Shown: piece after piece, positions 1,316 to 48,840 of the stretch | Layout: each line of letters starts with the position of its first letter | Numbering within the stretch: the stretch's first letter is position 1 | NCBI GenBank assembly: GCA_030141605.1 | Contig: JAQGDQ010000566.1 | Location: 62,001-126,000 of the forward strand | DNA length: 64,000 nucleotides | Reading direction: 5' to 3' | Source of the DNA: Tubiluchus corallicola | Taxonomy: Eukaryota > Priapulida > Priapulimorpha > Priapulimorphida > Tubiluchidae | Program-made: the position numbers and the translations under genes | Notes under the pieces: generated by a model | Database searches by the model: none | The model's input: the letters and a program-made list of their open reading frames with translations, nothing else | What the model was told of the DNA's origin: nothing

Positions 1316-4300
1316 TGAAGAAGAAGTCGACGTGTATTTGATAGATGAGGGATATACTGAAAAAGCTTCACTGAGTGACTGTATTGATGACCTTCCATAT
1401 GAGTTCACCTTGCAGGAGTGTGCTCCCCAAGCTTTTGACTGTGGCTTAGCAGATGTACAGTCTTGTGGTCAATTGGTAAGATATTGCACAAACTATTAAA
1501 TGAATCTTACTCATTACGACTAGGCTAGTTAACAGTATAAACTAGCTGATTACTTGAAGAAAAGAAGCAACAACAGACTGTAGCAAAAGTCTTTTTCTGA
1601 CTAATGTAACAAAATTTAACTTCTGCCATACTGAACAAAACTTAGAGTATCAAAACATTGTGAAAACACAAATGATCTATTTGCAGCTGGTCTTCATAAG
1701 GTAAAGCAACAAAAAGTTAAAGTAAGATGATAGCATATGGAAAGCTCAAAGATGTTAGTATATATATATATATATATATATCATATCTTCTTCTTCTCAG
1801 CTTTTCCCTATGCGGGGTCGCCGTTGTGAATAAGTTTTCTCCATGCATTCCTGTTGTTGACCATCTCTTCATTTATGTTCTTCTCTCTAAGGTCTCCGCT
1901 TATGCATTCAAACCATCTCAGCTTGGGTCGTCCTCTTTTTCTGTTTCCCAGTTATATATATATCATATATATATATATGTATTGACACACTGAGAGCCAA
2001 AATCCAGCATTTACGACATTGCCCTTGTGAAGCAGATTAATTTCCAGGCCCGAAAAGTTTGATATTTAGTAAATAATTTAACTGTAAAGCAAATTTAAAA
2101 TTAATTTTAAATTAAATTTTATTTTAATTTTAATTTTTTAAGTTTCAGTAATGTGTTTTTAAACGTCGAAATTTAGAGCAAAGACGTTACACATGTATTT
2201 TCACTGACTAACTGTGCAATTACACAGACATTCATCACACAGTGGTCTAGCTCACCTTCTTTTCTTAATTACCAAGTGTCTCTGTACAACTTTGAGCTCC
2301 TGTGAACGATGTCTGTTTGCTTTTTTGTGCACTTGCATCGCAGTGTGCAGCTGATGTATGGAGTCAGTTTGGTTCATTTTGACACAGACCAAGTGATTTT
2401 TGAAAGTTGCATGAATGCACTTGATTTGAGCTCCTGTAAAAGCTGTTTGCTTTTTGCTGCATGTTTTCCATTAACGCTTTTCAGAGTTCTCGATAAATTT
2501 TGTAGTTTTCATATTAATATGAACGATCTTCAAAGCACAACTGATTTGCCAAATATTCAGACAATATACCATCTCATTCTTATTGAAAACCAGCATAAAA
2601 TTATCATTGTGGTGGAAGTGTGCTATTTTTGAAGTTAACACAAACCACATCTCTGGGTATGTCGATCAAAAACTACTAAAACAATCAAATGAGTGGCATA
2701 TATTCTAAGAATGAATAAAATTTAAAAGAAAATTTTTTACAATGGAGTTTGGCTCATTGCTGTTATTCAGTTTAATCCCACTGCTTGTATCTGTTTTGTT
2801 TTTGCTACTGCTATAATGTTAGCTTTTCTGTTTGGTAAGCTTATGAAGGTGCCAGTAATTTTATTGGTTGCCCTGCAAAGAGGTTGAATTTCATGTGACA
2901 AATCACAGGAGACAGCTCTTGATGAAAAGATTTTTTTGTTTTCTGTTCATGCTATACGTCCTATTCTAAGTGCAGCAGCTGGTATGTCCTTTATGTTATG
3001 CATTTTGATGCATTGTATCCTATTTTTGATTAGTTTTACTTACTATTGTAACTCTGGCAGGTTGACGTTTGGGACGATGTAGCAGTTAGTACATTCAAAC
3101 AACTTGTCCTAAAGAGAATCTTGTATGGGAAAATAGAATCACAAAAGCAAGGAGTGAAGAACTTGACTTTGTCTTTCACGTAAGAAATATTAAGATATGT
3201 CAATAAAAAATACAGATTTTGACAGACAATTTTTGCACCTGTTAGTCCAGAAGACTATGCTTTAGGTCTGTGGTGAATGACATTACAGCTCAAATTTAAA
3301 AGTTTCCAAAAAGTTTGGACTTAATGTTTTAAGTCAACTTGATTCATCACCAGAATTTCTGAAAAATAAATTTAATTATGTAAAGTCCACAATGAAGTGC
3401 CTAAACTAGTGTTGAAGTCATTTAAAATAATTGCAAAATCGAAATTGCAAAATTATATTTATATATTTAGCAATTATTTTGGGCAGGTTTGCATTATTAT
3501 CATTTGTGTGAGTCGTCACTAGTAGTTGTTTAGGTCCTTTTTGGAGACTTCACATTCTTAAATTTATTTTTCAGAACTTCTGATGGTGAATCAAGGTGAT
3601 TCGACATGTTAAGTTCAGTAAATGTTATTATGTTGCAAACTTTGTTTATACATACCATATTTTAGATTTTAGTGAAAACTACAGCTCACGTAGATTTGTT
3701 ATTAGCTTTAATCTTTTGATGATTCATTTGCTAGTTGATACAAAAGATTTTAGAAAAAAATAAAGATGGCATGTATCTCATGCATCTGTTTTTCAGGTTT
3801 TTTCTTTGTTCTCAGGCTTTTCATCCACAAATAAAAAGGAAAAGCTTCTTTATCATTGTGTCGCCATTTTGGATTGCTTCTGACCTGCACTGATGGTGTG
3901 ACATGCATTTCAATACTTTCTCAACATATCTTTGTAATATTGATATTCTCTTGGTAAACCCCAATAGAAGCAGTAGTTTTAAATTACAATAATAGAAGTC
4001 ACAGAGGCCGCGCAAAAATTTAATAACATTGAAAATATTTGTATAGTTGTCAGAATCTGTTAAAGTATGTTATAATTAAAGCAAAACCGGACCCAATGTT
4101 AAATCGTAGGTCAAAACAATCTACTCTTTAAAATATTGAAAGGCAACATAACTGTTTTTTCAAAAATGACTTACATGAAAGAATTATTAGCACACACACA
4201 CAATTTCACGTTCGCGCCATTAGTTCTTCGCTGCTACATACATTTCCCATTCCCCAGTTAGACGGGTACTAGTGTCTGCATTTCGAAATGCATTGTGCGA

Positions 4301-5194
4301 AAAACAGCTGCTGTAGCTTTCAGTTCAGGTGTGTTAGTTTGTGACGAACTACACATGTTCGACAGCTCATGCTTGAACACAGCTGTAAATTTGAAATTTG
4401 AATTTTTATCTCAAAACTTAAAGAAAAACCTACTGATTACTCTACCTGCATCTTGGATTGTTAACTGATTAAGTGTGAAAGTGTGATTTGCAATGAGAGC
4501 TTCAAAAGGAAACTGCTAGACAAGTAATTAAATGTTTAGGTTCCAGAAATTCTTGGGTAACGAGGTTAATTGCAGTGGACGAGCTGATAACAGATTCAAA
4601 GCAAAACTGCTAGGCTAGCATATTAGCGCATGTTAAATGTACCTGCTTACAAACGAAACGATACTTAACGTGATTGTTTCTATTTATATTATAGTGCACA
4701 AAAGGGAAGAAAAGATGACATAAAAGTAGGAAAGGCTCTTTGGGCACATACAAATGTCTTATTTTAAGTATGTGAAGGAAAAATATTTGAGTCAATTACC
4801 GATAGTTTTTATGTACATTTGAATAGAAGCGGCCCGTACCAGGCATTTTTGAGTCTATTAACCGTGAGTCTATTAAGTGGCACCTACTGTATTATTTAAT
4901 TATCAGGAATACTTTTGCAGCAACAGTTGTGCTAAAATGTATACTTTTTATTGGACTTATAAATGGGCTGGTATTATGAATATCATCCTGTCTTCCTTTA
5001 TGTGCATTTTGATTATGTATTAATATTAGTTGCATGTCAATTGTTATAAAGTATTTTATTCATCCAATCTGTGACCTTTTCTCTTAATTCATTTTGCATT
5101 TAGAGAGGAAGCTTCTCAGTCGATAGCAAAGATTCTCGTTGAAAAGGGTCTTGCTATCACAACCAAATCAGAAATGCCAATATCTACACTGGTG
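1316..5194 (+). CDS. Exons 1-3: C-terminal half of an extended Tudor domain
   Basis: The three exons join to 123 residues. The first contains VYLIDEGYTEKASL, which lies where Tudor domains have a V-x-x-I-D-[YF]-G-N core, followed by a Leu-Pro-x-x-Phe motif (DLPYEF) and an AFDCGLADV strand. The second and third continue with the SN-like half (VDVWDDVAVSTFKQLVL, then AKILVEKGLA) typical of extended Tudor modules of piRNA-pathway proteins. The preceding strand and N-terminal SN-like helix must lie upstream of the window. The usual aromatic and Asn positions of the methylarginine cage read E and Y here. Confidence 0.85.
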
Positions 5195-8100
5195 GTAAAT
5201 ATATTGGTTTACCTTTTGTTAAACAGCATTAAAAATCTCATTACATATTCTTATAGACTATCTTTGTTATAAATTCTGAATGTTTTGCTAATTTTTTTTC
5301 TTTTTAACTTATTTAGATCCAAATTATATTCTAACTGAAACTGAATTCTCAAAAAGTTTGCCTATGTTCCTTCTGCCAGTAAAAATGTTATGTGATCTTT
5401 AGAATTCCCTTACATAGCAACTCATGATGTTTTGTTCAATTGAGGCGGGTTCTTAATGAATGTGTAAGCTTTTTTGGGTGTAAAGTGGTTTATTGGGATT
5501 TTATTTAGATCTAAGTGAAATGTGGCATTGAAATTTAACCATCTTAAGTGTGCACCCGAGTGTTTCTGTAGCCATGTTATACAATGACGTTAGAATAGCA
5601 TATGCACTGCTAGAAATAGCTGATCGCTACTGTTGCTTCTAGTATCCTAAAAAGTTACAGAAATGGTTAAAATGGGCAAAAAAATTTGCTGTGCCACTGA
5701 GGTTCACTTTAATTTCTTGCCTAAAAGTATCATGCTGTTGGTTAAATTTATGATGTACTGGACGTGAAATCCTTGTACATCATATCCCAAATATCCCAAA
5801 TATCTGCAGCTTTGCCATAAATGATTTGTTTAATAAAATTACTGTTAATGGAATTGTTAGAAAAATTGAAAAGCCGTATGATCACTGCATCGCATGTTTT
5901 AATCTTGCTGTGGTGTTGTAAGTCGAGTTATTTTTATGAATGTACAACTGTGTTCACTTGCAAAGAAATGTTGTAATAAACAAAACTTTTTTGAGAATGT
6001 AGTTTCAGTTAGAATATAAATCTATTTAAGTTAAATAGAAAAAAAGATTTACAAATGATAAGCTGTAACGTTTCAGCTGTTTGTCATGACACGTCCTTTA
6101 GCTGTTCTTTACTTACAGAAAGAACTTGGTTTAGAACCTACCTCACTTTCGTCTAGTCGACGTAGTTCTCGCAACTCAGCTTCTGAAAAAGATACCAGCA
6201 GAGAAGAGTTGGGAACAATGAAGTATTTTCCTAAGGAAGACAAAGTTTCTTTACTCACTTTAGCAACTGAGACGGGTGATAATGTAATTGCAGGTTCGTG
6301 TATGCACATAAATAGTGTTGTGAAAATTTCTTTGGCAAATATAGTCTTGCCTACTTATAAAACAGTTTGTCATAACTTAACTAGCTGTCCTGTTTACCAC
6401 CAGGCCAGACATGGTTTATTTACAAATCTCTGCACTCTTTTGTCAACTTTTAATATCATTAACTTACAGGCTTGCAACAAATGAACTTGTACATCTGTTC
6501 GCATGGGAACCATGCCCTAGATAATTCTGCAACCACTCAAATTTTTGTATTAGTGCAGTCTTTTTTCAAACACTAAGGGTATTTAAATAGTATTTACGTT
6601 GTTACTCTTGTTATATAGTAGTGTTCATATTTATTGCAACTTTTTTTGTGCATAGTGATCACTATTGCTCTGCATCTGTCTATCGTTTTGCTCCAACTAG
6701 GAGAGAACATATATCAGTTATAAAACTATCTGTTCAAACTTAGTTCGATGTTACGTCTTCAATAAAATTATGTTTACATTGAATATTCTTTGTGTGGGGG
6801 AAAACAACTGGTGATTTTTACCATCTTAAGTAAGTGAAATTCATCAATTTTTAATTTGTCATTCTGTGATTTTCTTATTATTTGTGTAATGAAAATGGAT
6901 ACGTGGTTTTATGTTGTGTTATACAGAAAGCCCTGGTGTAAAAATTCCTAACTTTAATTGGGATAGTCTTCCTCAAAACATTGGTCAGTTTGCGGATGCT
7001 GATGATATAAGTTGTTCATCTGAGGCCAGTGATGATGATACGACTTCCGCACAAGAAAGAGAAGGTACAATATTTTGGCATTTTTAATTTGGTATTGTTG
7101 GGTAATTAGCGCTTGATTGTTTGCTAAATAAACACCAATAAAAAGTTATCATAAAGTTTTGAGCATTTCATAAAATGTGATGCAAATTCGGTAGAAATTT
7201 GGTCTTTTTTGGGGGATTTTGTTATTCCTTCTGTTGCTTATTCCTATATAAAAATGATTAACTGCAAAACAATATTGTTTTACGGTGATAATCTTTTTTA
7301 AATATAATCAGAAAGTCCTCTAAATTACTTTAAGATTAGCAGATTTATGTTTACCTAAAAACTAATTCAGTTATTGTAAAATTGATTATAGTTTCGATTC
7401 ATTCAAGATTAAAACTGTCTTGATAGATGCCAAATGTTTACAGACTGTGTTGGATTGATGTAGCCATCTCTGTAGTCAGACATAACAATGACAAAGAAAT
7501 TGAAAAACAAAAAACAAAATAAGAAAAAAATGAAATTTGCTGGTGGAAATATTTCAGCCACCTGGAACCGTGCAGCTGAGAGCATTTAATTAGCAGTTTT
7601 AGGCCTTTGGTCATCCGGCATAATTGAACTTGCTATTTGCAAGTTTTTGTATGGTGCTTTACAAGATTCGTTTTGTATGTTCTGCACATGGAACCATCTG
7701 TAATAGTTTTTACATCATTTTAAATTGTTATAAGTACTGAGGTCTTTAGACCATGCATATTCGTAAAAATGGGATACTAATATTACTCTGGCAAATTGTA
7801 ATATTTACCAAAGCTTGTGTTATCACACTCCTTGTTTCAACTTTGACTACAAATAAATCCACGTAGTTGTTTAAGGTAACTCATTATCATCTGCAACTTT
7901 CTGCTCTGTGACCTTTCATTCACCTCACATCAACTGACAGGGTTATGTATCTCTTCTTCAATTTTTACAAAGCATTTTGCAAAATATATTTTTAGTAGTA
8001 AATACAATTGCTGTCGAATGAAGTAATATCTCAGCAACTTATGTGTACATGCATTAATACTAACTTTAACTTCAACTAAAGAAGGGGTCAGGAATTTGCT

Positions 8101-11100
8101 AAACTCTTTCAGGTGATGTTTAAGTTGTAATAGGAGTTTTAGTTTAAACCTTAAGACTTCTTTGCTATTCACAGAATAAAACTTAAATTTACAAGCAGTT
8201 GAAACTTTACTGATAATATAAATTCACATAATTTAGTGGATAAAACAAAAAATCTTATTCTTTTCTGTTAGAATATTGAAGCTTTTCTCATAGAGAGTTT
8301 TCAACTTGTGTTTTGTTCTGCGAATGATGAAGACCTTAAGTATCACTTCAAGCAGTTTGTCTATGGTTGGGTTCACGTTAGGTTTTGATTACTTTCACAT
8401 TATTCTAGCAGAGGAGTAGACATCATAATAATGTGATTATTGAATTGTTTTTGTCAAAGAATTGTTCTCTTTGCAGCCAATGACACTGATTAATATCTAG
8501 TTAATATCTATACAAACTCATAGTTAAAAATAATGGAAAAGGGTGCAGAAACTAAAAGTAAATTTTTTTGTCAGCACTTTAACATCTTAGCACTGCTAAA
8601 CTAGAAGTGATCATTACCAAGGCTAAATATTTGAATGTCGATATTAAGTTCTACTTTTTGAAGTCACTAGCACTTTTTTCTTCTGTGTTGGGATATTTGG
8701 CTTTGCTACACCATCGACCTTTATAGATGGCTACACTCATGTTACATAATTGTTATTTCTCTAGCTATAATTGCATTTGTTTTAATATTAATGAGAAATC
8801 AGTACTGTGTTTTGCACAGTGCTGGTAAGGATTTCATCTCGTAAACAACAAATTAAAGAAAAATGGCTTCGAAAAAACAAATTTTCTTTAATTTGTTGTT
8901 CATGATATTAACTATGGCAGAGCCATAAACTTAAGAAACTTTTCACTTTTCTACATTATTTAGTATATGAAAAACATGGAAACAATGTTACTACAATATG
9001 TGTTAGGGGACTTTTCATTTACATGTGTCACAAAAAAGGTCTTCATTGGGGCACCCCTTGGCACCTCATGAATTAAGTAAAATAGATAAAATGCCTATCA
9101 AAACTTTGACTCTTGGCAACTCTCGTAATTTTTCTTACAGGGAATAGTTTAAATCAATAAACCATGTGTGAGCATTTTTGCTGTATGTGATCACTCAAAG
9201 CTGCAACTCCCTAATTTTCATTCAAGGAAGGAAAAATTCATTTCAGCAAGATCACAGTCAGGCTTACCCTGCTAGTCCCTTTTGGAAAATTTGCATAATG
9301 ATAGTGATGCTATTTCTTTTTAGGAAATGATTGTCTTATCACCTTGTCTAGGGACACTTGGTCATCTGCAGATTGCTGTTATAATGCCTTATTACTATTT
9401 TATATATATTATTTATATTATATATTATGTGTGTATATGTGGTAGTCTTCAAGTATTAAATTATAAATTTGTTGTGTCTGTTTTAGCAAACAGAAAACTT
9501 GGATTTAAATATGTTCTTATGTATACGGTTGTTTTGGGATAAATAGAACTGAAGTAGTAATATTTAACTTCTTATCATGTACATAATTACTCTTATATAA
9601 AATAGTTTGAAAATGACTAAATTTTGATGCTGGAATAAAATTCTATATAGTAAGGTAGTCACAATGTTTTTTCAGCCGAAGAATTGAGGAATGAACTTTT
9701 TGGCACATCAGTTAGTCATTTTCAAGAATGGAGTAAGTGAAAGTTATATAAACCACAAAAATTGGACAAAAAACTTTGTGTGGACAGTTTTGGTAACACA
9801 TGACTTGCATTACTTGTGGCATGTAAAACAGCTAATAACAAGTCGGTTTCTTCGTCTGACAGAAAGCTTTATGTACCAACTGTTGGCAAATTAAAATGCG
9901 TTTTTTGCCTTTTTTCCAAATCTCAGTTTCCTTCATTCATACTTCTAATCATTTCTCAAATTCTTAGAAATCAATTGTAACTTATTGAGCCAGTAGACTG
10001 TAGTTTTCAATCTCCACCCCTTTCCACAAAATGCTAAGGACAAAAGCATAATTAATGGCTGCCAACCATTTTAGTTTTTTTGGGCTGGAATTTCATCATG
10101 TAATCAGTAGTTGAACTTCGCTTTTTTAGTATTAAATAATTTACTTATCAGTGTTACTAATTTCTTTTTACACTTTGTCACACTGTTAGCCAGAATCCAG
10201 CAGTGGTCAATTACATGGTACGCTCAGTGTGATGTTTGTAGAGCGACCGAAACTTAACTCATTATCAGTATCGTCTAGTCCAGAAGATAGGCCAATGAAC
10301 CAGCTGGGTGTTTTAGCTATGTTAAATTTTTTTATATCTCTTCCAACAAGGTACACAGCCACAATCAGTATGGCGTGTGAAACTGCCCAGAGAGATTATC
10401 AAACCCGTGCAGTCGCAAGCCATTCATGTGTAGACGTGACCACTCAGCCAAGCCGGAAAATATATAATCAATACCATATGATTTGCTTATAAGGAATGCA
10501 AGTTGTTACTGTTACCAGCATCTTCAGCTTTTTTCCCATTGTGACTATGTGTATGAGTTATAAGTTGATTTTAACATTTTTTGCACGATTAGAGTTTTTG
10601 TTCAACTTGTCACTAGGACAGTGCAATCGTACTTAGTCTTTGTTTAAATAATTATTTTTCAATTTACTTTTATAGCATTAATTTAGTCGCATCCAGTACA
10701 TCATTTAGTGCATTCTGTTGATAATTAGTCATTAGCGTTTTCTTTGCATGATAGTTTTAGTCTGTTCTACAAAGTTTTAACTTTCCTGTTGCCATGGTGA
10801 TGGGTTGATTTTTGTTAGCAATTCCACATTGCGCACATGTCCGCTGACTTTTCCTCAGTTTCGTATGCTTCTGACAGCTTCAAATGCATCTATTTTATGT
10901 AGCTTTGTATATCTGTCACTCTCAGTCTTATTTCAGAAAGTAACTGTAACAGAAGAAATCATTTATGATTCATTTTTCATGGATGGTTATAAACTCAATC
11001 ACAATCAGTAAACTCCCAGCCTTTAGTAAGTATCTTGGGCCGACATTAAAAATACTTCTGTTTCCATCTGTTCGCCCAGGCAATATTTTTTTATCGTGCA

Positions 11101-17100: not shown

Positions 17101-19007
17101 TTTAAATTTAAAAAATGCGCCATTATATGACGGAGTAAGTTAAGTGTATGAACGTGTAAAGAAAGATAAAATTCCTACCCGGCCAATTAGATGTAAACAG
17201 AAGTATTTTTATTGTGGCGGTTCGTAGTTCAAATTACTGGAGGTGCTACTTCAGAAAAATCTTAGCCATTGTTCTAATACTGTGTAAAGCAAAACAAACA
17301 TATGTGATTTTTTAGTGTTGTAATTTGTAATTTTAATGTTGTAATTTGTAGAATCCTAAACAACAAATATTGTTTGCTTGCAATTAGCCTAAATTATCGC
17401 AGTTCAGGCAATGCACTTGCGAGTTAAAATGAATTAAAAATGGTTGCTTTATAAAACTTGTGAAATCAATGCCTAGCATTGAGTTCTCATAGAATCTGTT
17501 GCTTGCAGATTATATAAAAGTGTGCACTTGTCCAAACACTGTTTGTTTGATATTTTAATGATGCCTTACCTGTTGCCAGGTCATCAGACGAAGAAAAAGA
17601 GAAGCGGGAGATAAGACATGGTCATCTTGTTAAGCAAATTGATAAGGTTCTCACTTCTCATAGTCTGCATCATTACGATGCCATTCTGGATGAACTGGAT
17701 AAAGTTATAATGATGGGTTGGTTTTTTTTTAATTACAGTCTTTTTATTTTAACCTGAGTTTGCAGCTGAGTTTGCAAACGATGTTACTAAGAACATTTCT
17801 GGTGCACCAAGAATTTTCTGAATTAGTGATGTTCATGAATTTTGAATAGGTTACTAATTTTCTAAAGGATGTCACATTTGATTTTACAAACCCACAGTTA
17901 TTTTAAAAACATGTGGTTTTGTAAAAATACACAAATTAATTTAAATAATAATAATATAATACATCTAATTTATTCTCCATTTGCAGAAGTACAATACATT
18001 TGTTATTCATAAATACACTTCATGCATAATATATGAAACATTACTACAGTTATCACAGTTAATTACATATATGCAATAGTGTGCATGAAAGTTATCTGTG
18101 TCAATATTCTCTAATGTATACTGTACATTACAGCACCTGATACGAATATCTGTGAAATACAGTACCGTTTGGTTACACTAGGAAAAATACTTTTCTTTTT
18201 GTGCTTTTGCATTGCAAAATCACAATAATAGGCATTTAGAATAATCATAGTTTCATAATTCTGACATTTTCTTTTTGCGACATGATTGACTAAGCTGCAT
18301 GCAATCTTTAAAGCAAACAGGATAGCTTACACCCGCATTGAACTGCTAAGACATAAGCTCTCGCCGCTGACGAATCTCTGCTTTCAAGACATTCCGGAAG
18401 CTATTGTCAAACACCATTCACTGTGCTTTGATGATGATTACCAGAATGGGATAAAAGATGCACCACATAAAGGCAAGCGTTTGACATTTTTTGCGTGCTT
18501 GTTGCAATCATCATCATCATAATAGCCATGGTCATTGTTATTGCCTGTAACATTGCTCATCATTGTATATGTGTTTATAATTTGTCGAAACTTCGGTAAC
18601 CATTTCCATATTATCAATAGTGTGTATTAGAAATTATAATCAATCATTGCCGTATTTGTTGCTGTTCCCAATTGTATTAGAAATTTTTACACTTTCTTAT
18701 TTCAGTTATTTTCAGTTTGATTTTTTTTATTATGCACTTATTATTACTGTGTATGAATTGTACTAACACGTTATAAGTTTATCAATTTAATGTCATTCAT
18801 AACAATTTAGTTTTTATTATAAGCAGTACTAACACTAATACACTGTAGCATAGCGCCTATAAAAAATGTTCATCACTAACCAAAGGGCAGCTGAATAGAT
18901 GACCAATTGGTCTTTCGCTGCCCTTTCTTCACATTTTTGTTACCAAATTAATTGTATTATAACTGTGCGTGTGTTAAAAGATAAATAAAAGATTATTATT
19001 ATTATTA

Positions 19008-19074
<67 letters not shown>

Positions 19075-25000: not shown

Positions 25001-28000
25001 GATTGGGGGTCGAGGCAGTAAATGGGGCTTTGTGTAACTGTGAAGCGCATCACAGTTTTTGAAATCTTGTCAAATCAAACCTGTATGTTATAATTTCAAA
25101 CAAGCATGAGAACAAGCCTTGATAAAGACCTCATAAAGCATCTGTGTAATTTCCTAAACATCTGTGTGTTTCTTATATTTTGGTAGAATACTAATTTAGC
25201 AAAATTAAGCTGTATTATTAACACATGTTAGTCATTACTTAAGAACTCCGTGTTTTGTTTTAACACTTTTTCACTTAGTGACGAATGTTTCATTATAAAA
25301 ATGAATTTCTTGGCCCTAGTTCCAGTGAATTTTTATTTCTGCTCTTTTAAGAAACCAGTACTAAGTCCTAAGTGATATTGTGCTTACCATACTTATTAAT
25401 AGCTGGGTGTCATGGATGTGATTTATTACTGGTGCTTGCCTGCTTAGAGACCCTACTGTTACTTGTACACTTAGGGTTAGTAACTAAATTTACCAGTTAC
25501 TGTATTTTACAGTGTTGGGAGAAAGCAGTGCTTTCATATTGGGAGAAAGTTTGGTAAAAAAATGTAATATTAAGCAGTAACACTGGTAAAATGTTTGATT
25601 TATATGAGTCAACTGTTATTTACCATTACCATCCTAACCCCCAACCGTCCCCCCGGATTTAAGTTTTCATGCGATAGTCTGGTTCTAACATATAATGCCT
25701 CACAACAAATATTATAGATATTTTCTACACAATTTTCAATTCATATGTAAATTACTCTAGCTTTTTACATTAATATCTTGTGATTGTGAACATGAATAAT
25801 CAAATTGCATGATATAACATAGTTCCATGCCGGTATCATATTGTTTCATAATCAGCTAACCAATAACTTATAATTACAAAAATCAGTTCACTGTTGTTTG
25901 TGTATTACAGCATCAACAGAAGAGTCAGCTGTGGTTACAACAACAGTTTGTCGATTGTGTTCAGCTAGTCCTGTACAGTGTTGGACCCATCATGGAAGCT
26001 CGTTTCTTAAATGAAACTAATAAAATATTTGATGCAATCAGGGAGTGTGCTTTGTCTGATAATGTTCCCAAGTAAGAAATTAAGCTAATTTTCTATAACT
26101 TGTACTTAGTCAGTAAGTTAAATGCATTGTCTACATAGCATATGAGATATGTAACAGTTAAATATAAAACATAAATTATTTCTTAAAATTATTTCAGAAC
26201 TACTAAAACCAAGATGCTAGACCTGCTGCTGTTTCGTAGTGAAAACTGGGGTCGTGTTAAGATCGAAAGCTCTACATTTTCTTCTGATGATGAGAGAAGT
26301 GGTAAAGAATCTTACTGCTGTGCTTTCCTTTGTACTTGCTGTAGCTAATTAAGTTTATTCCTTGTGTAAAATTTTATGGCGTGAAATTAAATGATGATTA
26401 CATTTATACTTCTAACTACAATGCTTGTTGCTTCTAGCCAGTGGCATAGGAATAGCATCCGAGGTCTCGAACACAGTTAATTTTGTCATCTTTGTCAGGT
26501 GCTAATTATGTTTATTATAGACATTATTTAGGCAGAATTTTTAAATGTGTACTTGCATAGCAGAATCGTCCACAAGTCGGTAAATGAGCTTTTCTGGTTA
26601 TTCACATATTCCTGACGAATATCTGGGCTTGGCAACAGAAAAAACTTGAAACAAAATGACTGCTTCCACGAGCTTCTATCGGAGTTTGAAGATACGAGTT
26701 TTTTACAATAGCAGTACTTGTTTGTACCCAGAAAAGTGGGTAGGGGGTTTAAATTTTTAATATTTTTTAAATATTTTCTTGATAATTTCATGTTAGAATA
26801 TTAAAGTCCAGTATATTTAGCATTTGTTTTTATAAAAAAAAACAAAAACTTGACATTTGAACAAATTTTTGGTGCATTCTACTTTGAAGCATCATAACAT
26901 AGTTTTAACTATGCCAACTTATGGACGGTTTTGGTTCGCAAGCTCACAAATGAAAAAGGTATATTTTGAAGACATGAATCCAGCAAGCACTAGACTTTGC
27001 TGTGCCAATGTCACTACCATTCATTTAAAAAGAAATTGTGAGACTGAACAGCTTTTTATATAAAAACTTCAAAATGAGCTTTATTAGCATTTTAAACTTT
27101 ATAGCAGCTTTAAATTTAAATATTTTATTTGTTTCATTGCATTCTAATGTAAAGTGCAAAACAGTTTTTATAAAGCTCAAGTTCATATTTTCATGTAAAT
27201 TAGCATTCTGTGTGATTATGCATGTTCCATTATTCCATTGCCAAACGTTTATGCATTTTTAGAAGCTGAACCCCCAAATACAGCTAAACAGAGAGTTGAG
27301 GTGCCGCAGACTGAACCTCCGTTGCAATCGGTCACTGGGACGCCCAGTAAGTGAATAAGTAAAAGAATAATGAGTAAAAGAAGAATAATTAATAAGAATG
27401 ACAAGAATAATGAATTTCCGCATTACGTATTTAGTGCACTTTGTATTTTTGCATTGAATTAATCTGTGTTATTCAGTAAGAGAACTTACCTTTGTCATGG
27501 TTTGTGGTCAGAGAACTAAGTTGAGCATTTGTGAACCTGCTCAATAAAAACAAATGAATGGGAGGCGGCCACGAAAACTTCTGGCTGTTTCTTACCGTAC
27601 ATGCTGTTTATTGTGTTAAGAGGGATGGAGACATGTCCGAATGTGGTTTAGGCACCGTTGCTGTTTCAGTATATCATCTTAGTGAATTGTCGTTGATAAT
27701 GAAATAAGTACTTTTAAGTGAAGGATGTTGGTCTGCCATACTAAGTGAAGAAATTTATTGACTAACAGAATAACCCTGGACAAGTTCTGATAGGTGACTG
27801 GTTCTGGCTAGTAGTTAGTGTAACGGCTGATAATTGATTCTGTTTTCCCGAAGTTTCTAAGTTTGTGCAAAAATATATCGGTTCATCGGAGAACTCCGAT
27901 AATGAAATGGCTATAATGAGTCACTATGGAAATCAGGAGTTAATCTTTCTCAAGGTCTGTGCAATTGATAATTGACAAAAATCATCCATTTCTGATATTA

Positions 28001-31000
28001 CTGCTTCTAAAGGATTTTTGCAAAATTTGAAGGCCCTCAAGGTGGCAAACCTTCAGGGAACTGTTTTTTTTAATTAGGCCACTAAATAATGTCTGACAAA
28101 GTGGCTCCACATTCATAGAATTTTGTACTTTTCAGCCCCAGCGGATTCAAGATGGATTGATACACCAACAAGTGAAGGTGGAACAGCTCACCATTCAGAA
28201 TCTGATCCATACAAACTAGTTACCGAAATGTTAGAAGAACTGCAAATGGTCGACCTTCTGCCAACTTTTAAACAGAATAAAATACGGGTGGATAGCAATT
28301 TTGATTAATCGTTTTTAAAATTAGTTTCACATCGTGTGTTTGATATGCATCACACAGTTATACAGATAGCAAAAATGTCAGAACTTTAGTGCCAATTAGC
28401 CCCTGAGATTGCAAAATGTCATAACTTTAGTGCCAATTAGCCCCTGAGATTGCAAAATGTCAGAACTTTAGTGCCAATTAGCCCCTGAGACTGCAAAATG
28501 TCAGACTTTAGTGCCAATTAGCCCCTGAGACTGCAAAATGTCAGACTTTATTGCCAATTAGCCCCTGAGACTGTAAAATGTCAGAACTTTAGTGCCAATT
28601 AGCCCCTGAGACTGCAAAATGTCAGACTTTAGTGCCAATTAGCCCCTGAGACTGCAAAATGTCAGAACTTTAGTGCCAATTAGCCCCTGAGACTGTAAAA
28701 TGTCAGAACTTTAGTGCCAATTAGCCCCTGGGACTGCAAAATCTCAGACTTTAGTGCCAATTAGCCCCCGAGACAGCAAAATGTGAGAACTTTAGTGCCA
28801 ATTAGCCCCTGAGACTGTAAAATGTCAGAACTTTAGTGCCAATTAGCCCCTTAGACTGTAAAATGTCAAAACTTTAGTGCCAATTAGCCCCTGGGACTGC
28901 AAAATCTCAGACTTTAGTGCCAATTAGCCCCTGAGACTGCAAAATCTCAGACTTTAGTGCCAATTAGCCCCTGAGACTGCAAAATCTCAGACTTTAGTGC
29001 CAATTAGCCCCTGAGACTGCAAAATCTCAGACTTTAGTGCCAATTAGCCCCTGAGACTGCATAATCTCAGACTTTAGTGCCAATTAGCCCTTGAGACTGC
29101 AAAATCTCAGACGTTAGTGCCAATTAGCCCCTGAGACTGCAAAATCTCAGACTTTAGTGCCAATTAGCCCCTGAGACTGCACTTTCCAAATTTTGGGAGC
29201 CCCAACTTTGCATCACAAATTTGATTTTAAAATTTAAATTTTTTTTTGTTTATTTTTACTTAAGAGATGCTGTTTTTACAGACATTAAGCATTTCTGTAA
29301 ATGCAAAAGTGTGTACAAGGTTGTATTAGGTTGATCAGTTCTTACAACGGATTACTTATAACTTTGCAGTTTATGCGACTAATAATTGTTGTTCAAGCTT
29401 CTAGTATTAATGCTCAGTATAAAAACATTGATGACGATTTACAGCATGCAATGTCTTTTTTTTTACACTCTAGGATAAGATTCTGTCAGCTGATTTCTCC
29501 GCTTTATCGGAACTACTAAAAGAATGTGATATTCCTAGAGGTTATGTGTTTGAGCTGATTCAGTACCTGAAGATAAAGAGTAAGTGCTCAAGATTAAGAT
29601 TATGATAAAAATACATATTTAAAACCCAAGAATATGTGTGAGCAGTGCATCTCCGTGAGTACGTTTTTAGTCGGTAACAAACACCTCACTTTTGCTATGG
29701 CTGATAATTTCGTTCAGTAGAGTACTAAGTTTTATTAGGCAGGTAATGACTGTGAACGCCAGAATGCTCATAAACCATCACGATTCATCTCACAACAATT
29801 ATTACCCATTGCGGGTAATGAGTTAAGAAAAAAGGAGACGCTGAAATTTCATCCTTGTGACAGATAATCCAACAGCACCACAAGGGTGAAATCTCGGGCC
29901 TGCTCTGTCATGTTGAACTGGTAACTGGTAGAGCGGGAGGTCTAATCCCAGGGCTTTGTATTCAATTCCCAACTGGTTCACAGTTTTTCTTTTCCGCATC
30001 TCCTTTCTTCAACTCATGACCCGCAATGAGTAATAATTGTTGTAATATAACCCACAATGGTTTATGAACATTCTGGCATTCATTCGCAGTGATAATCTAG
30101 TAAATCATATTGTTAATTGTCAGCTAATTTGATAGAAGTTGATACCATAAGTGCCAAGTTTCATGAGCATGTTCTGCTCTTCTAGCGACAAAGTCACCAT
30201 TGTAGTCAAGATTAAATACTGAAACTCTGATTTGAATGTATTTTAACAGTTTGGGTCAATTACTTTTAAAATGTAGTATCACTACAAATACATTTATTCT
30301 TCTGAAAAATAGTTTCACACCCCTACAAATACTCTTATAAAAAAGTAGTTGCAACTACAACTACTCTGTAGAATTAGTGTTACTACAATAGGCACTACTA
30401 TCTACTTTTGTTTTGCAACTTCTGGGCAAATTCCAAAATATAGGTGGAACATTAAAAGAGCGGTAGCAGTCACTGACAACTAAATTGTTTAGTGACAGCT
30501 AAACAAACCCAAGTAGAAAATTTCTCAAATTGCATCAAGGTTCCAACGAAGCAGCTTATTTAGGATTCTAAAGAGACACCTGAAGGTCATTCATTCATTG
30601 TCAACACAATAGTAAGTGATTCATTAAAATATTATTCATGTGACACTTCATTTTTATATCATGCGATAAACTGCTGTTCATATTTCAAAAACTTAATTTT
30701 TTAAAGTTGCTGTCACTAAGCAAAATATGTTTTCCAAGAAGAGACACAAATAACGATGACCAGCGAGGCATGTTACACATAAAAGACTTACTTCACCGTG
30801 GCCTAAATCATTACAACTACGTATGCAGTTACACAGCTTGCTGAAGCTGTAGACGTCAGGGACGCATGCTGCAAAAACACAACTCACCATGCAGACATTA
30901 ATTGTCAGTTGCAAGAATTAAACGCAGTGCTGTAGTGCCATTACAGTTTACCGGTGTTTGTGTTCAGAGTAGTGGTCTACTTCACTATGTAGTGGCACTG

Positions 31001-34000
31001 CTGCAGTGGCGTTACTACCCAACAGTGGATTTAACTGCAGTTTATTTCAACAGAAACTGAAATTGAAGAAAAGCTGGCGAAACAGCATTCTGAGAAGCAT
31101 ATAGAAATAGAGCTCAAGCAGGCTGATGTTGAGTTGCATAACATTGAAAGAAAGCCAAAAGTTATGAAACTTGTCCCGCTGGAAAGACCTCCAGTTGACA
31201 GTGCAACTGAAGCAGTGGTGCCATCCTGTGAAGAGCTAGTCAAACCTACTACATTGGTAAGATTTCTTTGATGAGTTTTAATGTCGTTTTACGTACTGTT
31301 TAGCTGATGTTTAACTATGATGGAGTAATCTACCAGCTGTTATTAATTACCAATACGTTGCTGTTTCATTTTAATTATGCTTCTCTAATTGTTCTCTTCT
31401 CTTCTCTAAAATAAAGAAACAATTTTAAAACAAAGAAAAGGCATGACGTTTCAAACCACTGCTGCAATCAGGTGTAAAAATGAAAGAAGAAAAATCACAT
31501 AAGATACTAAAACTTATTTTTCGTTTTTTATATATTACTTATACGTAAAAATACCACATTTAAAAGTTAAATGTGGTATACAAACACATTTACAAAAATA
31601 CAATCAAATATTAAAATCATGGAGGTACTCAAAATGGAAAAACTGAAGTATCACTGGCCACAATCGCTGTAACTGCAAGAGACACACAAAAGTGTGGAAG
31701 TGCCTCTGTGTTTGAAATAGGATTGTGACTATATCCTTTTTGGTGTAGTATTTTACGTGTAAATAGTATAAAAAAAATCCCAAAAATTAGTTTTACTATT
31801 TGTGTGGTTTTTTTCTTCTCTTTTTTCCACCTTATGATAAACCTCGGTGGCTGTTTGAAATATCGTGCTTTTTTATTATTTTACTAGTGAGATTTTTTAG
31901 TAATTAATAAATGTTTTTATCTCGTCTGTTAAGTGTAACTCTGATTTTGCTCAATGCACAGAAATAAATTTCAATACCAACAACTCCAGATTTGTGTAAG
32001 TGGAAAATACCTAATTCACTACTTAACTTATATAGGCCCTTCTGTCAAATTTAATTAAATCATTTATGTGAATTATACGTTTAATATTGTGTGGGCTGTG
32101 CATATGCTTCTACTTTGGACAGGTTAAACAAATTATAAAAAAAAGTTAATTAGAATTATTACTCATTCGGATTACAGAGCTCTTACAAATGTTTTATTTA
32201 AGCAGCTTAATATTTAAAAAGTCAATAGTATTGTTTGTATGAAATTTGCGTGTAAGAAACAATACACTTCATATGTACAATACTAGGCAGTTCAATGATT
32301 ACCATATATCAAAAATAACAATTGATGTTACGAAAGATTTTATTGGTTACCAGTCCTGTTTTATGGAATAACTTGCCGTGTAATATGAAGGAAACTAATT
32401 TGTGCTTTAAAATGGAAATGAAAATTATATTTTAATATTTTTATACCACTAAATAACTTTCATTGCAAATATTTTGCAATAGTTTAAATTTTCGAATGCT
32501 TTTTATTTATTTATTTAGTTTAGCGAATTTAGCCTTATGTCTGGTGACTTTGTGGCCAGCTGTAATTTGTGTTATGAAAATGATGTAAATTATTTTATTT
32601 ATCAGAACTGTATTTTTCATGTCATAGCTAAATGACCAAGTCTTTGTTAATGTGACTTTTCGCATACAGGAAGATATTACTATGGCAAACTTAGAAAGAA
32701 AATGGCAATTTCCGTTGAGTTTTGAATTTTCTTGCAAGCAGTCTCATTTTCTGTGCCTGGCCAATGAAGAAATTATTCAGTACTTCCTTTCTAGTTTGAG
32801 AGGAGGCAGTAAATCTTTATAGTTTAACTTTTTTCAGTGTAAAATGATCATATCACTTACTTGCACTGTTTACATCTTTGCAGGCAGCTCAGCCGACATA
32901 TTCTGATTATAGTTCAGTTGTAAAGTCTAATTTATCTGAAAGTAAGAAGCAATCAGGTGAAATCAGCAGGTCCGTGCCAACTCGTCACCGTAGTGCCTCT
33001 GGCGACTATGCAGCAAGTGTTGCCCAATTGCCAGCCATGCTGTCGCCAACATCCTTGCCAGCTGTGCAAGGTAGCCAAAGATCTCGTAGGACTCCAGTCA
33101 CAGAGATGTTTATAAACCATCTACCGGATTTACGTAGTCCAGATGCTGAAGTCAGCATTCCATTAGATTCTGATCTGAAACCTCCATCAGCTTTTCTTCT
33201 TTCTCCGAGTTCTTCGTCTGATGGAAATAAACTTTTAAATGAGATTAAAACGCTTGGCGCCATGAAAGATGATTCGTTTGCTGCTACGCCGCTGAAATCG
33301 AGTGATATCATTGAAAACCAACATCTACTTACAACACTTCATCAAGACATCTCAGAAGACATTGTTCACAGATGTGAAAAGTTGGAAGTTTCAGACAGTC
33401 TACCTAAGGATGCTGATGTAAAACCTGACTGGTTTAGTCCTGCCCAGTCGCCTCAGCATTTTTCTAATCAAGTGGCTGTTGATGTTTCCAGCTCTCAGAG
33501 AGCGGAAATCTCATCCGATCAGTTTCATAAAACACTGGAGAAAGCTACTGATGCCAGGGAATTGGATAAGTTTGCTCGTAAGGGAAAGCTTTGCACCCTA
33601 CCAAGCTGGTCCAGTTGTATGGATTCTCCCAGTCCTGGTACACTGCCACAAGTGAAGCAAAGTGCCCAATCTCGCTCTTCACTTACAAGAGATTCTAACT
33701 TAGAGGATTGTGTTCGTAATAAATCAAGTTTGAATCCAATAGCCCCCATTTTTAACTCAAGAATGGCGGGGCGCAAACAGCCAATGAAGCCGCCGAATTT
33801 GAAAAGTTTAGCTCAGGACTTGATGGAGGGCAAATTCACGGAAACTCAAGCTGCTGATGGTGAGACTGTCTCAAGGAGAGATCTTGTCGAACAGCTTGAG
33901 AAAGTTTGCACTCCAGCTAATGTTTTTGAAGAGGAAGAATGGACACCACTGGATTGGAGCGAATCGGCTACAAATGTTCTGTCACAGTCCAATGTACAGG

Positions 34001-34257
34001 AGATACCTGTGGAGCCTGTTACCACTACAGTACCTGCTACTGAAGCTGCACATATTGATGACAAGCATGACTATGATCAAATGGATTATTATGATTTCTC
34101 TGAGGACGAACTTGTGCCTGTTGTTCAGGAACATGCAGTGGAAATCACTGAACAGCAGGCGAAGTTTATTTTTTCATCTGAGAGGAGGTTCTGCACAAAC
34201 TGTGGCAGCCCTGACCATCTTGTCTATTCGTGCCGTGAACAACGTCTACTCATTTGA
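1316..34257 (+). CDS. Tudor-MIF4G-SAM-zinc knuckle protein, 3' part of gene (24 exons)
   Basis: Exons inferred from GT-AG sites and phase continuity: 1316-1475, 3061-3179, 5104-5194, 6119-6293, 6927-7064, 9676-9732, 10194-10307, 12582-12710, 13181-13400, 14282-14431, 14933-15019, 15499-15879, 17580-17716, 19850-19972, 20584-20654, 23901-23992, 24863-24935, 25911-26071, 26198-26301, 27263-27346, 28136-28287, 29474-29579, 31054-31256, 32884-34257. All junction phases agree, giving about 1,499 residues plus stop. Order: half an extended Tudor domain (residues 1-123), polar linker, MIF4G domain (about 620-855), SAM domain (about 911-973), Ser/Pro-rich tail, CCHC knuckle (about 1479-1492). The first exon begins inside the Tudor fold, so the 5' exons lie outside the window. 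Tudor and MIF4G domains are known for methylarginine-protein binding and translation-factor binding; an RNA-granule or translational-control role is inferred. No ortholog name is recognised. Small exons 9676-9732 and 10194-10307 are the least certain. Confidence 0.85.
1752..1985 (-). mobile_element. LINE 3' end: reverse-transcriptase C-terminal fragment with TA tail
   Basis: The reverse complement of 1808-1950 is open and reads GNRKRGRPKLRWFECIS, then further residues ending in WRKLIHNGDPA and a stop. RGRPxxRW followed by a WRxLI-type ending is the classic C-terminus of non-LTR retrotransposon polyproteins. The stop is followed by a short 3' end and a TATATA tail (about 1756-1782). A second TA tract flanks the other side (1952-1979). 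Confidence 0.8.
4430..4889. mobile_element. Pogo-like element family B, truncated copy 1
   Basis: The right end, read in reverse complement, is CAGTAGGTGCCACTTAATAG followed by ACTCACGGTTAATAGACTC, and it abuts TA at 4890-4891. About 460 bp match, in inverse orientation, the left part of the copy at 20832-21340. The opposite terminus was not found. The open frame at 4610-4795 lies inside this repeat and recurs, altered, in the second copy, so it is not evidence of a gene. Confidence 0.75.
6119..15879 (+). CDS. Exons 4-12: polar linker of the Tudor-MIF4G protein
   Basis: Nine exons encode about 480 residues rich in Ser, Glu, Asp, Arg and Gln. They have no recognised fold and look disordered. 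Exons 4 and 5 hold Ser-rich (SLSSSRRSSRNSAS) and acidic (SSEASDDDTTS) stretches. Exon 12 (15499-15879) has a Lys/Arg-rich start (SEKKRDLPKIVPKWSRN) and a Gln/His run (EQQHHQQ). The 10194-10307 exon is supported by phase and by the frame PEDRPMNQLG, but an open stretch just downstream (10351-10430) may be an alternative exon. Confidence 0.7.
8844..8900. repeat. Perfect 19-bp hairpin in an intron
   Basis: AACAACAAATTAAAGAAAA at 8844-8862 is the exact reverse complement of 8882-8900, with a 19-base loop. The sequence is AT-rich. It could be a small foldback element or a transcribed hairpin. Nothing around it identifies a mature small RNA. Confidence 0.6.
11040..11700. repeat. Dispersed repeat R1, copy 1 (inverse orientation)
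   Basis: The region 11500-11700 (GTGGAAAT, a CCACGATTCAACTTTAAACATTC segment, GGTCATGAGGTAAGACAGAAAC) matches the reverse complement of about 16650-16800. The left part (11041-11110, with ACTTCTGTTTCCATCTG and CCGGCCAGGAATTTTATC) matches the reverse complement of 17170-17215. No coding potential. It lies in the intron between 10307 and 12582. Confidence 0.65.
16600..17250. repeat. Dispersed repeat R1, copy 2
   Basis: This is the direct-orientation partner of 11040-11700, in the intron before exon 17580. It carries the same motifs (GACCTGAGGAGACCAGCC, CTGAATCGTGGATTC, CCACTGGTTAGCAG) and ends with a short motif that also recurs near 56320-56390. The frame at 16868-17098 lies within the repeat and is not a gene. 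Confidence 0.65.
17580..26301 (+). CDS. Exons 13-19: MIF4G domain (PAIP1/CTIF/eIF4G type)
   Basis: Seven exons join to about 255 residues predicted to be all-helical. The block runs from a helix with DAILDELDKV, through EWLELVLETIMRAAIRQ and a short YAVCLNKLLLKYQNQF exon, to QQFVDCVQLVLYSVGP and the closing motif LLLFRSENWGR. That closing motif closely matches the end of the PAIP1 middle domain (Arg-Ser-x-Asn-Trp-Gly-Arg). MIF4G domains are HEAT-like scaffolds that bind eIF4A or other translation and decay factors. The intron after 19972 begins with GC instead of GT (AAG|GCAGGT), and phase requires this site. Confidence 0.8.
18286..19072 (+). mobile_element. Probable retroelement 3' region with open fragment, hairpin and TTA tail
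   Basis: An open segment (18286-18522) with coding-like composition contains RIELLRHKLSPLTNLCF and IPEAIVKHHSLCFDDDYQNG, but I do not recognise a family. About 360 bases later, AAAGGGCAGC (18882-18891) pairs with GCTGCCCTTT (18917-18926), and the unit ends in AATAAAAG plus a long ATT repeat. A very similar hairpin occurs at 43215-43265. Terminal hairpin plus microsatellite tail is typical of CR1/L2-like LINEs and their SINEs. The open segment cannot be a cassette exon of the surrounding gene, because the phase that would be needed puts a stop in frame. Confidence 0.5.
18990..19073. repeat. (ATT)n microsatellite
   Basis: About 26 ATT units run with one interruption (ATTTTT near 19009). They follow AATAAAAG and probably started as the tail of the retroelement to the left. 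The Ile-rich antisense frame here is an artefact. Confidence 0.9.
20068..20300 (+). mobile_element. tRNA-derived SINE
   Basis: TATGGCTAAGTGG (20074-20086) fits the RNA polymerase III A box and GGGTTCAATACTC (20156-20168) fits the B box. The spacing is larger than in a normal tRNA gene. After the B box comes a body containing CTGGCTGTTT, a motif shared with the SINE at 40600-40795. The anticodon and acceptor arms cannot be folded cleanly, so this is not a tRNA gene. Confidence 0.6.
21640..22205. other. GC-rich island of unknown origin
   Basis: About 560 bp with many CG dinucleotides (GGCGCC, CGAATCGGGCCC, CGCGAGAGGACC) sit in an AT-rich intron, immediately after a TATATATATA tract. The only long open frame (antisense 21705-21959) resembles nothing I know. 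Two subsegments have a similar pattern: a T/A-rich TTTTTCGA core beside a GC-rich flank. Candidates are an insertion from another element, a satellite unit or foreign DNA. Confidence 0.5.
22540..23065. repeat. GT-rich minisatellite (GGTGTGGTGT-type)
   Basis: Irregular units built from GGTGTGG, GTGGTATGGTG and GTGGAGTATTATGG run for about 520 bp. The plus strand is almost free of C. All frames through it are open because of this composition, so the Trp/Cys/Gly-rich and Thr/His/Pro-rich frames on the two strands are not genes. Confidence 0.9.
28136..29579 (+). CDS. Exons 21-22: SAM domain
   Basis: The residues KLVTEMLEELQMVDLLPTF and the next exon's DKILSADFSALSELLKECD with IPRGYVFELIQYLK match the five-helix SAM pattern: a Leu-rich helix 1, Phe before the Gln-Asn-x-Ile turn, an L-x-x-L helix and a final Gly plus a long amphipathic helix. 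SAM domains mediate oligomerisation or RNA binding. Which of these applies cannot be told from the sequence. The 1.2-kb intron dividing the domain holds the 20-copy tandem array at 28369-29180. Confidence 0.8.
28369..29180. repeat. Tandem array, 20 copies of a 40/41-bp unit
   Basis: Each unit contains TTAGTGCCAATTAGCCCCTG followed by AGACTGCAAAATGTCAGAAC or variants. I count 20 occurrences of the CCAATTAGCCC core. Early units mostly have AAAATGTCAGAAC or AAAATGTCAGAC. Later units are almost uniformly the 40-bp AAAATCTCAGAC form, which suggests recent local amplification at that end. The array lies wholly in the intron that splits the SAM domain. There are no spacers, so it is not a CRISPR. 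Confidence 0.95.
29746..30092. mobile_element. Foldback element enclosing a tRNA-like sequence
   Basis: The left arm (about 29746-29840) and right arm (about 29996-30092) are imperfect reverse complements over roughly 95 bp, sharing GCCAGAATG, CATAAACCAT, ACAACAATTATTAC and GAGTT near the inner end. The loop contains GGTAGAGCGGGAGG and TATTCAATTCCCAACTGG, spaced like a tRNA D arm and T arm. It lies in the intron between 29579 and 31054. Confidence 0.7.
30236..31020. other. Intron segment with degenerate GTAGT/ACTAC-rich motifs
   Basis: Several inverted motifs (GTAGTATCACTACA, AAGTAGTTGCAACTACAAC and GTAGTGGCACTGC) occur at 30270-30410 and again at 30930-31015. This is suggestive of an old hAT-type element, but no paired termini or target duplication were found. 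Nothing else is visible here. Confidence 0.3.
32085..32434 (+). mobile_element. Degenerate CR1/Jockey-type LINE fragment
   Basis: Broken frames read KKLIRIITHSDYRALTNVLF then KQLNI near 32136-32213, and PVLWNNLPCNMKE near 32356-32400 before a stop. These match the conserved C-terminal reverse-transcriptase pattern RIIT-x-S-x-YRAHT-x-x-LF-x-x-LNI and the LWN-x-LP motif of CR1/Jockey/L2 elements. Stops and a frame change between the two parts show that the copy is dead. It sits in the last intron of the Tudor gene. Confidence 0.7.
32884..34257 (+). CDS. Terminal exon: Ser/Pro-rich tail with CCHC zinc knuckle
   Basis: This single exon encodes 457 residues and the stop. Most is low-complexity (Ser, Pro, Asp, Glu) with a basic patch AGRKQPMKPPNLKSLAQDLM near the middle. 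An acidic tyrosine-rich stretch (DYDQMDYYDFSEDELV) precedes the end. The final residues contain CTNCGSPDHLVYSC, an exact C-x2-C-x4-H-x4-C zinc knuckle of the kind that binds single-stranded RNA, followed by seven residues and TGA. The acceptor ctttgcag and the long open frame make this the most certain exon of the gene. Confidence 0.92.
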   Translation, partial: AAQPTYSDYSSVVKSNLSESKKQSGEISRSVPTRHRSASGDYAASVAQLPAMLSPTSLPAVQGSQRSRRTPVTEMFINHLPDLRSPDAEVSIPLDSDLKPPSAFLLSPSSSSDGNKLLNEIKTLGAMKDDSFAATPLKSSDIIENQHLLTTLHQDISEDIVHRCEKLEVSDSLPKDADVKPDWFSPAQSPQHFSNQVAVDVSSSQRAEISSDQFHKTLEKATDARELDKFARKGKLCTLPSWSSCMDSPSPGTLPQVKQSAQSRSSLTRDSNLEDCVRNKSSLNPIAPIFNSRMAGRKQPMKPPNLKSLAQDLMEGKFTETQAADGETVSRRDLVEQLEKVCTPANVFEEEEWTPLDWSESATNVLSQSNVQEIPVEPVTTTVPATEAAHIDDKHDYDQMDYYDFSEDELVPVVQEHAVEITEQQAKFIFSSERRFCTNCGSPDHLVYSCREQRLLI

Positions 34258-41385: not shown

Positions 41386-41666
41386 TATAATTTTATCACG
41401 AGTAATTAAAGATTAATATTATAACTTCTCCAACATACAAGAAGAATTTTCATTTGGTTGCGTTAAAATTACCATGTTGAACATTTTCCAACTAAACCGT
41501 TTGCCATTGCCTCAAGGGTTAGTAATTAAACGAACCTCACATGACTGCACTAGCTCGCAGAAATACTTGGAAGTCTCGAAGATGTTACCCCTAGGCACCA
41601 AGCTACTACATTTCGTGACTACGCAGTAGTACTGAGTGCCACAGAGGAGGTGAAAAGAGAGACATC

Positions 41667-48772: not shown

Positions 48773-48840
<68 letters not shown>

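Follow-up and report, generated by a model that had tools for sequence, protein, structure and literature searches.

The predicted product of a gene on the + strand of a 64,000-nucleotide stretch of Tubiluchus corallicola DNA (the window, i.e., C1468:62001-126000) appears to combine, in one protein, an extended Tudor domain with a MIF4G end resembling that of PAIP1 and with a zinc knuckle at the C terminus, an architecture supported by comparisons of the joined exons with profiles, solved structures and other sequences of the same genome (343.5 Mb searched, in 2344 contigs). The preferred reading, to which a probability of about 0.45 is given, is that this one gene encodes a cytoplasmic, mRNA-regulating scaffold for PABP and translation factors that would resemble PAIP1 and would carry a cageless Tudor domain for docking.

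The exon chain was rebuilt from the sequence as 24 exons between window positions 1316 and 34257, and the number of phase-compatible exons given in an earlier note on this DNA was thereby borne out, with 23 of 23 junctions in compatible phase and a single open chain of 1514 residues that closes with a stop codon at 34255-34257. Acceptors were AG throughout, and the introns were of the GT-AG type in 21 cases and of the GC-AG type in two, the GC donors being those of exons 13 (18314..18472) and 14 (19850..19972). The GC-AG introns (18473-19849 and 19973-20583) are thus successive introns of one gene. Reading of the contig upstream of the window revealed two more in-phase exons, C1468:61002-61128 (or from an ATG at 61014) and C1468:61380-61545, with which the protein reaches 1608 residues. 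Since C1468:61002-61128 is preceded by an acceptor site, it may not be the first exon, and there may be more upstream. The coding chain of the earlier note is therefore real but is not the whole gene; the 24 exons are part of a gene of at least 26 coding exons and at least 1608 residues, the 5' end of which lies upstream of the window.

Since a chain picked by eye could be made to fit, two tests that involved no training on this gene were applied. For the coding test, codon usage was trained on six open-frame stretches elsewhere in the same genome, including Tudor genes on C814 and C2019 and two MIF4G-domain genes that we take to be NOM1- and CWC22-like, and each exon was compared with open (i.e., stop-free) intronic windows, exons longer than 60 codons being judged on their first 60 and single p values being floored at 1/3000. 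Coding signal at p<0.05 was noted for 21 of 26 exons (the 24 and the two upstream). The exons below threshold when taken singly were exon 2 (3061..3179, p 0.07), exon 15 (20584..20654, p 0.32), exon 16 (23901..23992, p 0.09), exon 17 (24863..24935, p 0.26) and exon 18 (25911..26071, p 0.06). For exon 1 (1316..1475), none of 3000 intronic windows scored as high. Combined p values by Fisher's method were 6.5e-20 for exons 1-11, 4.1e-7 for exons 12-19 and 3.5e-9 for exons 20-23, and a leave-one-out codon test trained on this gene itself scored 20 of 26 exons as coding. The chain and the coding test together indicated linker exons 7 (12582..12710), 8 (13181..13400), 9 (14282..14431) and 11 (15499..15879), the charged linker of exon 23 (31054..31256) and the long exon 24 (32884..34257).

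For the second test, a gene finder with the same outside-gene training and a generic splice consensus was run over window positions -1999 to 36000 at three intron penalties; low penalties, which gave many tiny exons, were discarded. Exact exons numbered 16 of 24 at a penalty of -12, 12 at -15 and 8 at -18. At -12 the finder predicted 22 exons, of which 16 were exact, three overlapped exons of the chain, two were the upstream ones and one was extra. At -15 it made 16 predictions, 12 of them exact, and at -18 it made 10, 8 of them exact; at these two penalties much of the MIF4G region was lost. Linker exons 4 (6119..6293) and 5 (6927..7064) were recovered exactly, as were exons 16 and 17 at the mildest penalty only. 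Exon 24 was exact save for one base, left off the stop codon by the script, exon 12 (17580..17716) was given a 3' end at 17703 instead, and the start of linker exon 20 (27263..27346) was shifted by 3 bases. The finder did not include linker exons 6 (9676..9732, coding p 0.04) and 10 (14933..15019, p 0.003) or exons 13 and 14 (p 0.01 for each) and 15.

The extended Tudor domain proposed in the earlier note was confirmed once the upstream exons were joined. Thus, the match to PF00567 rose to 45.9 bits (E 7.3e-12) against a cut-off of 23, as opposed to 14.4 bits, under the cut-off, for the window part alone. The two upstream exons encode the first half of the domain, exon 1, which is bounded by AG and GT, encodes the end of the Tudor core (VYLIDEG), exon 2 encodes the SN-like part and exon 3 (5104..5194), which was also indicated by the chain and the coding test, encodes the end of the extended Tudor; completion of the domain by upstream DNA is good evidence for these N-terminal exons. 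The best matches among solved structures were all extended Tudors, namely TDRD1 (2.1e-7), SND1 (1.1e-5) and Spindle-E, and the PDB alignments, including that of TDRD1 over exons 2 and 3, ran across residues 23-208 and hence through an SN-like extension. The structural Arg and Asp of extended Tudors appear to be kept in W-Q-R-A and I-D-E-G (residues assigned by eye), and these two residues together with the SN-like extension constitute the definition of an extended Tudor in the excerpted text of PMC7255803.

Residues of the methylarginine cage were assigned by eye on an alignment of the domain with two Tudors of known structure and 11 of the 33 Tudor matches in the same genome (i.e., the near-full-length ones). 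The five positions were occupied here by S, Q, L, E and Y, compared with F/Y, Y, F/Y, Y and N in the canonical cage, which was kept in full in 7 of the 11 aligned Tudors of this genome. A methylarginine-reading Tudor has four cage aromatics plus Asn, and the incomplete cage of Krimper eTud1 goes with binding to peptides of PIWI proteins in which Arg is unmethylated (PMC8249470, in excerpt); the same is stated of TDRD2 in an excerpt of PMC7255803. Canonical sDMA reading by the present domain is unlikely from its residues, and because its cage is replaced and Krimper eTud1 and TDRD2 bind unmethylated peptides, its probable role is that of a module for docking proteins and not that of an sDMA reader. 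The description of the protein in the earlier note as a piRNA or germ-granule reader is weakened by the cage residues, although binding of unmethylated PIWI peptides by cageless Tudors does exist.

The MIF4G-like region, which corresponds to residues 763-955 of the spliced protein, is preceded by a lead-in in exon 12, begins in exon 14 and extends through exons 15, 16 and 17 to its C-terminal half in exon 18 and its end (MLDLLLFRSENWGRV) in exon 19 (26198..26301), which also passed the coding test. No match to Pfam MIF4G was found in the joined protein at E<=10, and none of the seven PF02854 matches in the genome was on contig C1468. In a search of PDB, the matches listed at E<=10 comprised only two distinct sequences, both of them MIF4G proteins (E 0.63 and 0.64). 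The alignment with MIF4GD (chain 4jhj) was equalled by 0 of 500 shuffles and placed about 62 residues at the end of the region in the right part of that domain; the aligned part as a whole spans 25929..26258, across intron 18. A profile of eight MIF4G sequences, with one row supplied from background knowledge and one joined by hand, gave 14.0 bits where the best of 2000 shuffles reached 9.3, and a profile of five sequences exceeded the shuffle maximum by a narrow margin (10.8 compared with 10.3). In profile-profile comparison 0 of 300 shuffles scored as high. Of 711 sequences HMMER gave 545 a score, and the region came top among these, with the runner-up at 5.7 bits.

Pairwise comparisons were more varied. 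End pieces of the PAIP1 of the same genome scored higher against the region than any of 1000 shuffles, and weak results were obtained with eIF4G1 (15 of 500 shuffles as high) and eIF4GII (86 of 500). The high pairwise score with human PAIP1 depends on a tail supplied from background knowledge and was not significant when that tail was left out (131 of 1000 shuffles as high). The N-terminal half of the region alone was likewise not significant (151 of 2000 shuffles as high), and exons 15 and 17 within it showed weak coding signal. The C-terminal half finishes in R-x-x-x-W. The MIF4G domain of human PAIP1 ends in an NWG motif, and the MIF4G part of a PAIP1-like gene at C419, read from four collinear pieces, ends in ELKASNWGQ. 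When the genome was searched with human PAIP1, a single match was listed, to one exon of the C419 gene (E 0.01), and four collinear pieces were found within an 8-kb stretch (E 3e-7 to 0.11). The new protein is, to judge from these comparisons, distinct from the PAIP1 of this genome, which would be the separate gene at C419. From the results as a whole we conclude that the region probably represents a divergent MIF4G domain with a recognizable C-terminal half; thus, of the MIF4G domain claimed in the earlier note, the C-terminal half reached significance by more than one kind of test, while the N-terminal half did not and the domain has no Pfam match.

Two further elements were found in exon 24, which encodes a polar tail and the stop codon. 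The zinc knuckle CTNCGSPDHLVYSC (34192..34233) conforms exactly to C-X2-C-X4-H-X4-C, a motif present in 2 of 5000 shuffled proteins, and its Pfam CCHC score was just short of the cut-off (18.9 bits compared with 20.8, for a 41-residue piece), so that the terminal knuckle reported in the earlier note was upheld by the exact motif. A PAM2-like motif, SSLNPIAPIFNS (33724..33759), which that note did not contain, is a putative ligand of the MLLE domain of PABP. Positions 3, 4, 5, 7 and 10 are as expected (L3, N4, P5, A7 and F10) and the usual Glu at position 9 and Pro at position 12 are lacking, the determinants being those given in an excerpt of PMC2854688 with Asn 4 added from an excerpt of PMC7356810. 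The motif was chosen after the fact; its relaxed core was present in 21 of 5000 shuffles and a broader core in 277, and SSLNPIAPIFNS did not match a stricter PAM2 pattern. Two MLLE matches were found in the genome. The PAM2-like motif adds to the putative link with translation. An eIF4E-type YXXXXL motif was taken as chance, since 2812 of 5000 shuffles have one.

Evidence for the SAM domain of the earlier note, which would begin at 28204 within exon 21 (28136..28287), continue in exon 22 (29474..29579) and cover residues 1029-1095 of the spliced protein, was mixed, although both exons passed the coding test. No Pfam SAM match was found in the joined protein, 193 of 1000 shuffles scored as high with a six-sequence profile, and the spliced region tied with an unrelated open frame at 4.6 bits. 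On the other side, only 5 of 1000 shuffles scored as high with a 17-sequence profile, the profile-profile score was above all of 400 shuffles, if narrowly (17.9 compared with a maximum of 17.4), and the frame of exon 21 by itself had the top SAM score among real open frames. A SAM domain is possible at this position. The intron between the two SAM-like exons (intron 21) contains a 40-base satellite of about 20 copies with 93% matches (28372-29181).

The view that the chain joins two or more adjacent genes, namely a Tudor gene that stops in the neighbourhood of exon 3 or of 15898, followed by a MIF4G/CCHC gene whose start would be at exon 4 (ATG 6086) or close to exon 12 or 13, was weighed against the one-gene reading and is considered rather improbable. 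It draws on a version of the finder for which this gene itself was the training set and which at penalties of -20 and -26 began with an extended exon 4 at ATG 6086, without the Tudor exons, and at -26 also placed a break at 15897; moreover, the frame of exon 11 would reach a stop at 15898, and intron 11 is 1.7 kb long. The outside-trained finder, in contrast, returned one gene at all three penalties, from before exon 1 to a sole gene end at 34256, with no break at 15879-17580 and with exon 12 in the model at two of the three. A gene end between 15879 and 17580, which the earlier note, with regard to transcripts, gave as a sign of two genes, was therefore seen with one finder, at its harsher setting, and not with the other. 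Both candidate split junctions are in phase, and no AATAAA occurs between 15880 and 17580, where two ATTAAA are present. Exon 12 is coding (p 0.0003) and yet has no ATG in its own upstream open frame, which makes it unlikely as a first coding exon. The gene finder thus supports one gene without proving it.

Two other explanations concern what the domains would do. In one of them the middle of the protein is made up of helical repeats of a generic type with no working MIF4G, so that the Tudor domain and the knuckle would stand and the link to translation factors would be unreal. The absence of a Pfam MIF4G match and the shuffle result for the N-terminal half speak for this explanation. Against it, the C-terminal half beats shuffles and the other scored open frames and has an NWG motif at its end, also present in the PAIP1-like gene of this genome, and the explanation is regarded as unlikely. 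According to the other, a strict form of the reading in the earlier note, the protein is a germ-granule methylarginine reader whose Tudor domain binds sDMA-marked PIWI proteins while its MIF4G part brings translation factors. The extended Tudor is real and the genome has Piwi-domain genes and other Tudor genes; nevertheless, all five cage positions differ from those of canonical Tudors, and this explanation is given very little weight.

Comparison with known systems serves to place the preferred reading, that of a PAIP1-like scaffold with a docking domain. The new protein resembles PAIP1 in a MIF4G part that ends in NWG, as does that of the PAIP1-like gene of its own genome, and may resemble it in having a peptide of PAM2 type outside that part, and differs from it in the Tudor domain and zinc knuckle, neither of which, to our knowledge, is present in PAIP1. 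With MIF4GD (SLIP1) it shares the C-terminal half of MIF4G over the aligned 62 or so residues, but the solved MIF4GD chain has only 222 residues and, as far as we know, MIF4GD has no other domain. TDRD1, SND1, Spindle-E and TDRKH are similar in having a Tudor with the SN-like extension and the structural Arg and Asp, whereas the canonical cage is missing from the new protein; we know of none of the four with a MIF4G domain. ZCCHC14 has SAM and CCHC domains, of which the new protein has the CCHC and a possible SAM, and no Tudor or MIF4G domain is known to us in ZCCHC14 or GLS-1; orthology of the new protein with these two was considered and is not proposed. Krimper eTud1 and TDRD2 are alike in that cage residues are replaced and unlike in their other domain partners, peptide binding by the new protein being putative. 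GLS-1 of C. elegans, called a ZCCHC14 orthologue, works together with GLD-4, both in the germline and in P granules (PMC7988573, in excerpt).

The domain combination is judged to be new. We know of no characterized protein with this domain order, which agrees with the statement to that effect in the earlier note, and no paper on such a protein was found among titles and abstract starts of a mostly open-access literature; it is quite possible that annotated but unnamed homologues exist. An NCBIfam search gave nothing useful, relatives of the MIF4G part were not found in viral contigs, and relatives of exon 24 were not found in viral or prokaryote genome contigs. A Pfam match to JetA (E 0.01) was taken as chance.

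PAIP1 joins PABP to initiation factors via PAM2 and MIF4G. The presence of PAM2-like and MIF4G-like elements together with a Tudor docking domain and a knuckle of the RNA-binding type is the reason for proposing a PAIP1-like scaffold tied to a Tudor partner. Such a scaffold would act like PAIP1 with a docking domain built in, and translation of the mRNAs bound to the Tudor partner would be raised or lowered, perhaps in germ granules. The genome contains intact-cage Tudor genes, MLLE and the separate PAIP1-like gene, as well as genes with Piwi domains, which may be of the Argonaute or of the PIWI type, and the last of these together with the other Tudor genes make germline use plausible, so that a germline function may be suggested. 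A second possible role is stimulation of DEAD-box helicases by the MIF4G part, since helicases of this kind are stimulated by MIF4G domains, which contact the two RecA-like domains and set their orientation (PMC5458760, in excerpt).

A more far-reaching version of the scaffold proposal holds that the protein represents an undescribed family of translational regulators of animals. Their cageless Tudor would attach a PIWI protein without methylation, or another granule protein, directly to the PABP and initiation-factor machinery and would thereby couple, within one polypeptide, the small-RNA or granule membership of an mRNA to its translation. This version is offered as a long shot. The usual account connects PIWI/Tudor granules to the translation machinery by chains of separate adaptors; were the proposal true, a single protein would provide a direct physical route from granule to translation and a simple genetic handle on it, and the Tudor fold would have been used beyond methylarginine reading and combined with translation factors. 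Should the architecture turn out to be conserved in invertebrates but lacking in the common model animals, this lack would explain why such a regulator of translation had been overlooked.

Several features of the surrounding DNA were also noted. The 20 matches listed in a self-comparison all belonged to the satellite named above. A search for a suspected inverted repeat linking introns 6 and 11 gave no such repeat at the settings chosen, no Rfam or tRNA match was obtained in the window, and COX1, sought in order to narrow down the animal group by its mitochondrial code, was not found. The intron before exon 1 contains a degenerate array of TTAGGG, in about 26 copies (77-231), and intron 15 a long minisatellite of the GTGGT type (22540-23062). 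Upstream of the window, the contig carries C-terminal exons of a ferritin (PF00210; C1468:16607-18153) and, at C1468:46695-53407, an fn3 exon and a later exon, ending at 53407, that looks membrane-spanning, the two possibly belonging to separate genes. Downstream of the gene, exons of an ammonium transporter occupy 41619-55970 on the + strand (outer limits by eye), two tested pieces of which matched PF00909 at 56.8 and 30.8 bits, and a pentraxin domain, matched by PF00354 at 73.3 bits, is encoded on the - strand in an open frame of 326 residues (61835-62815).
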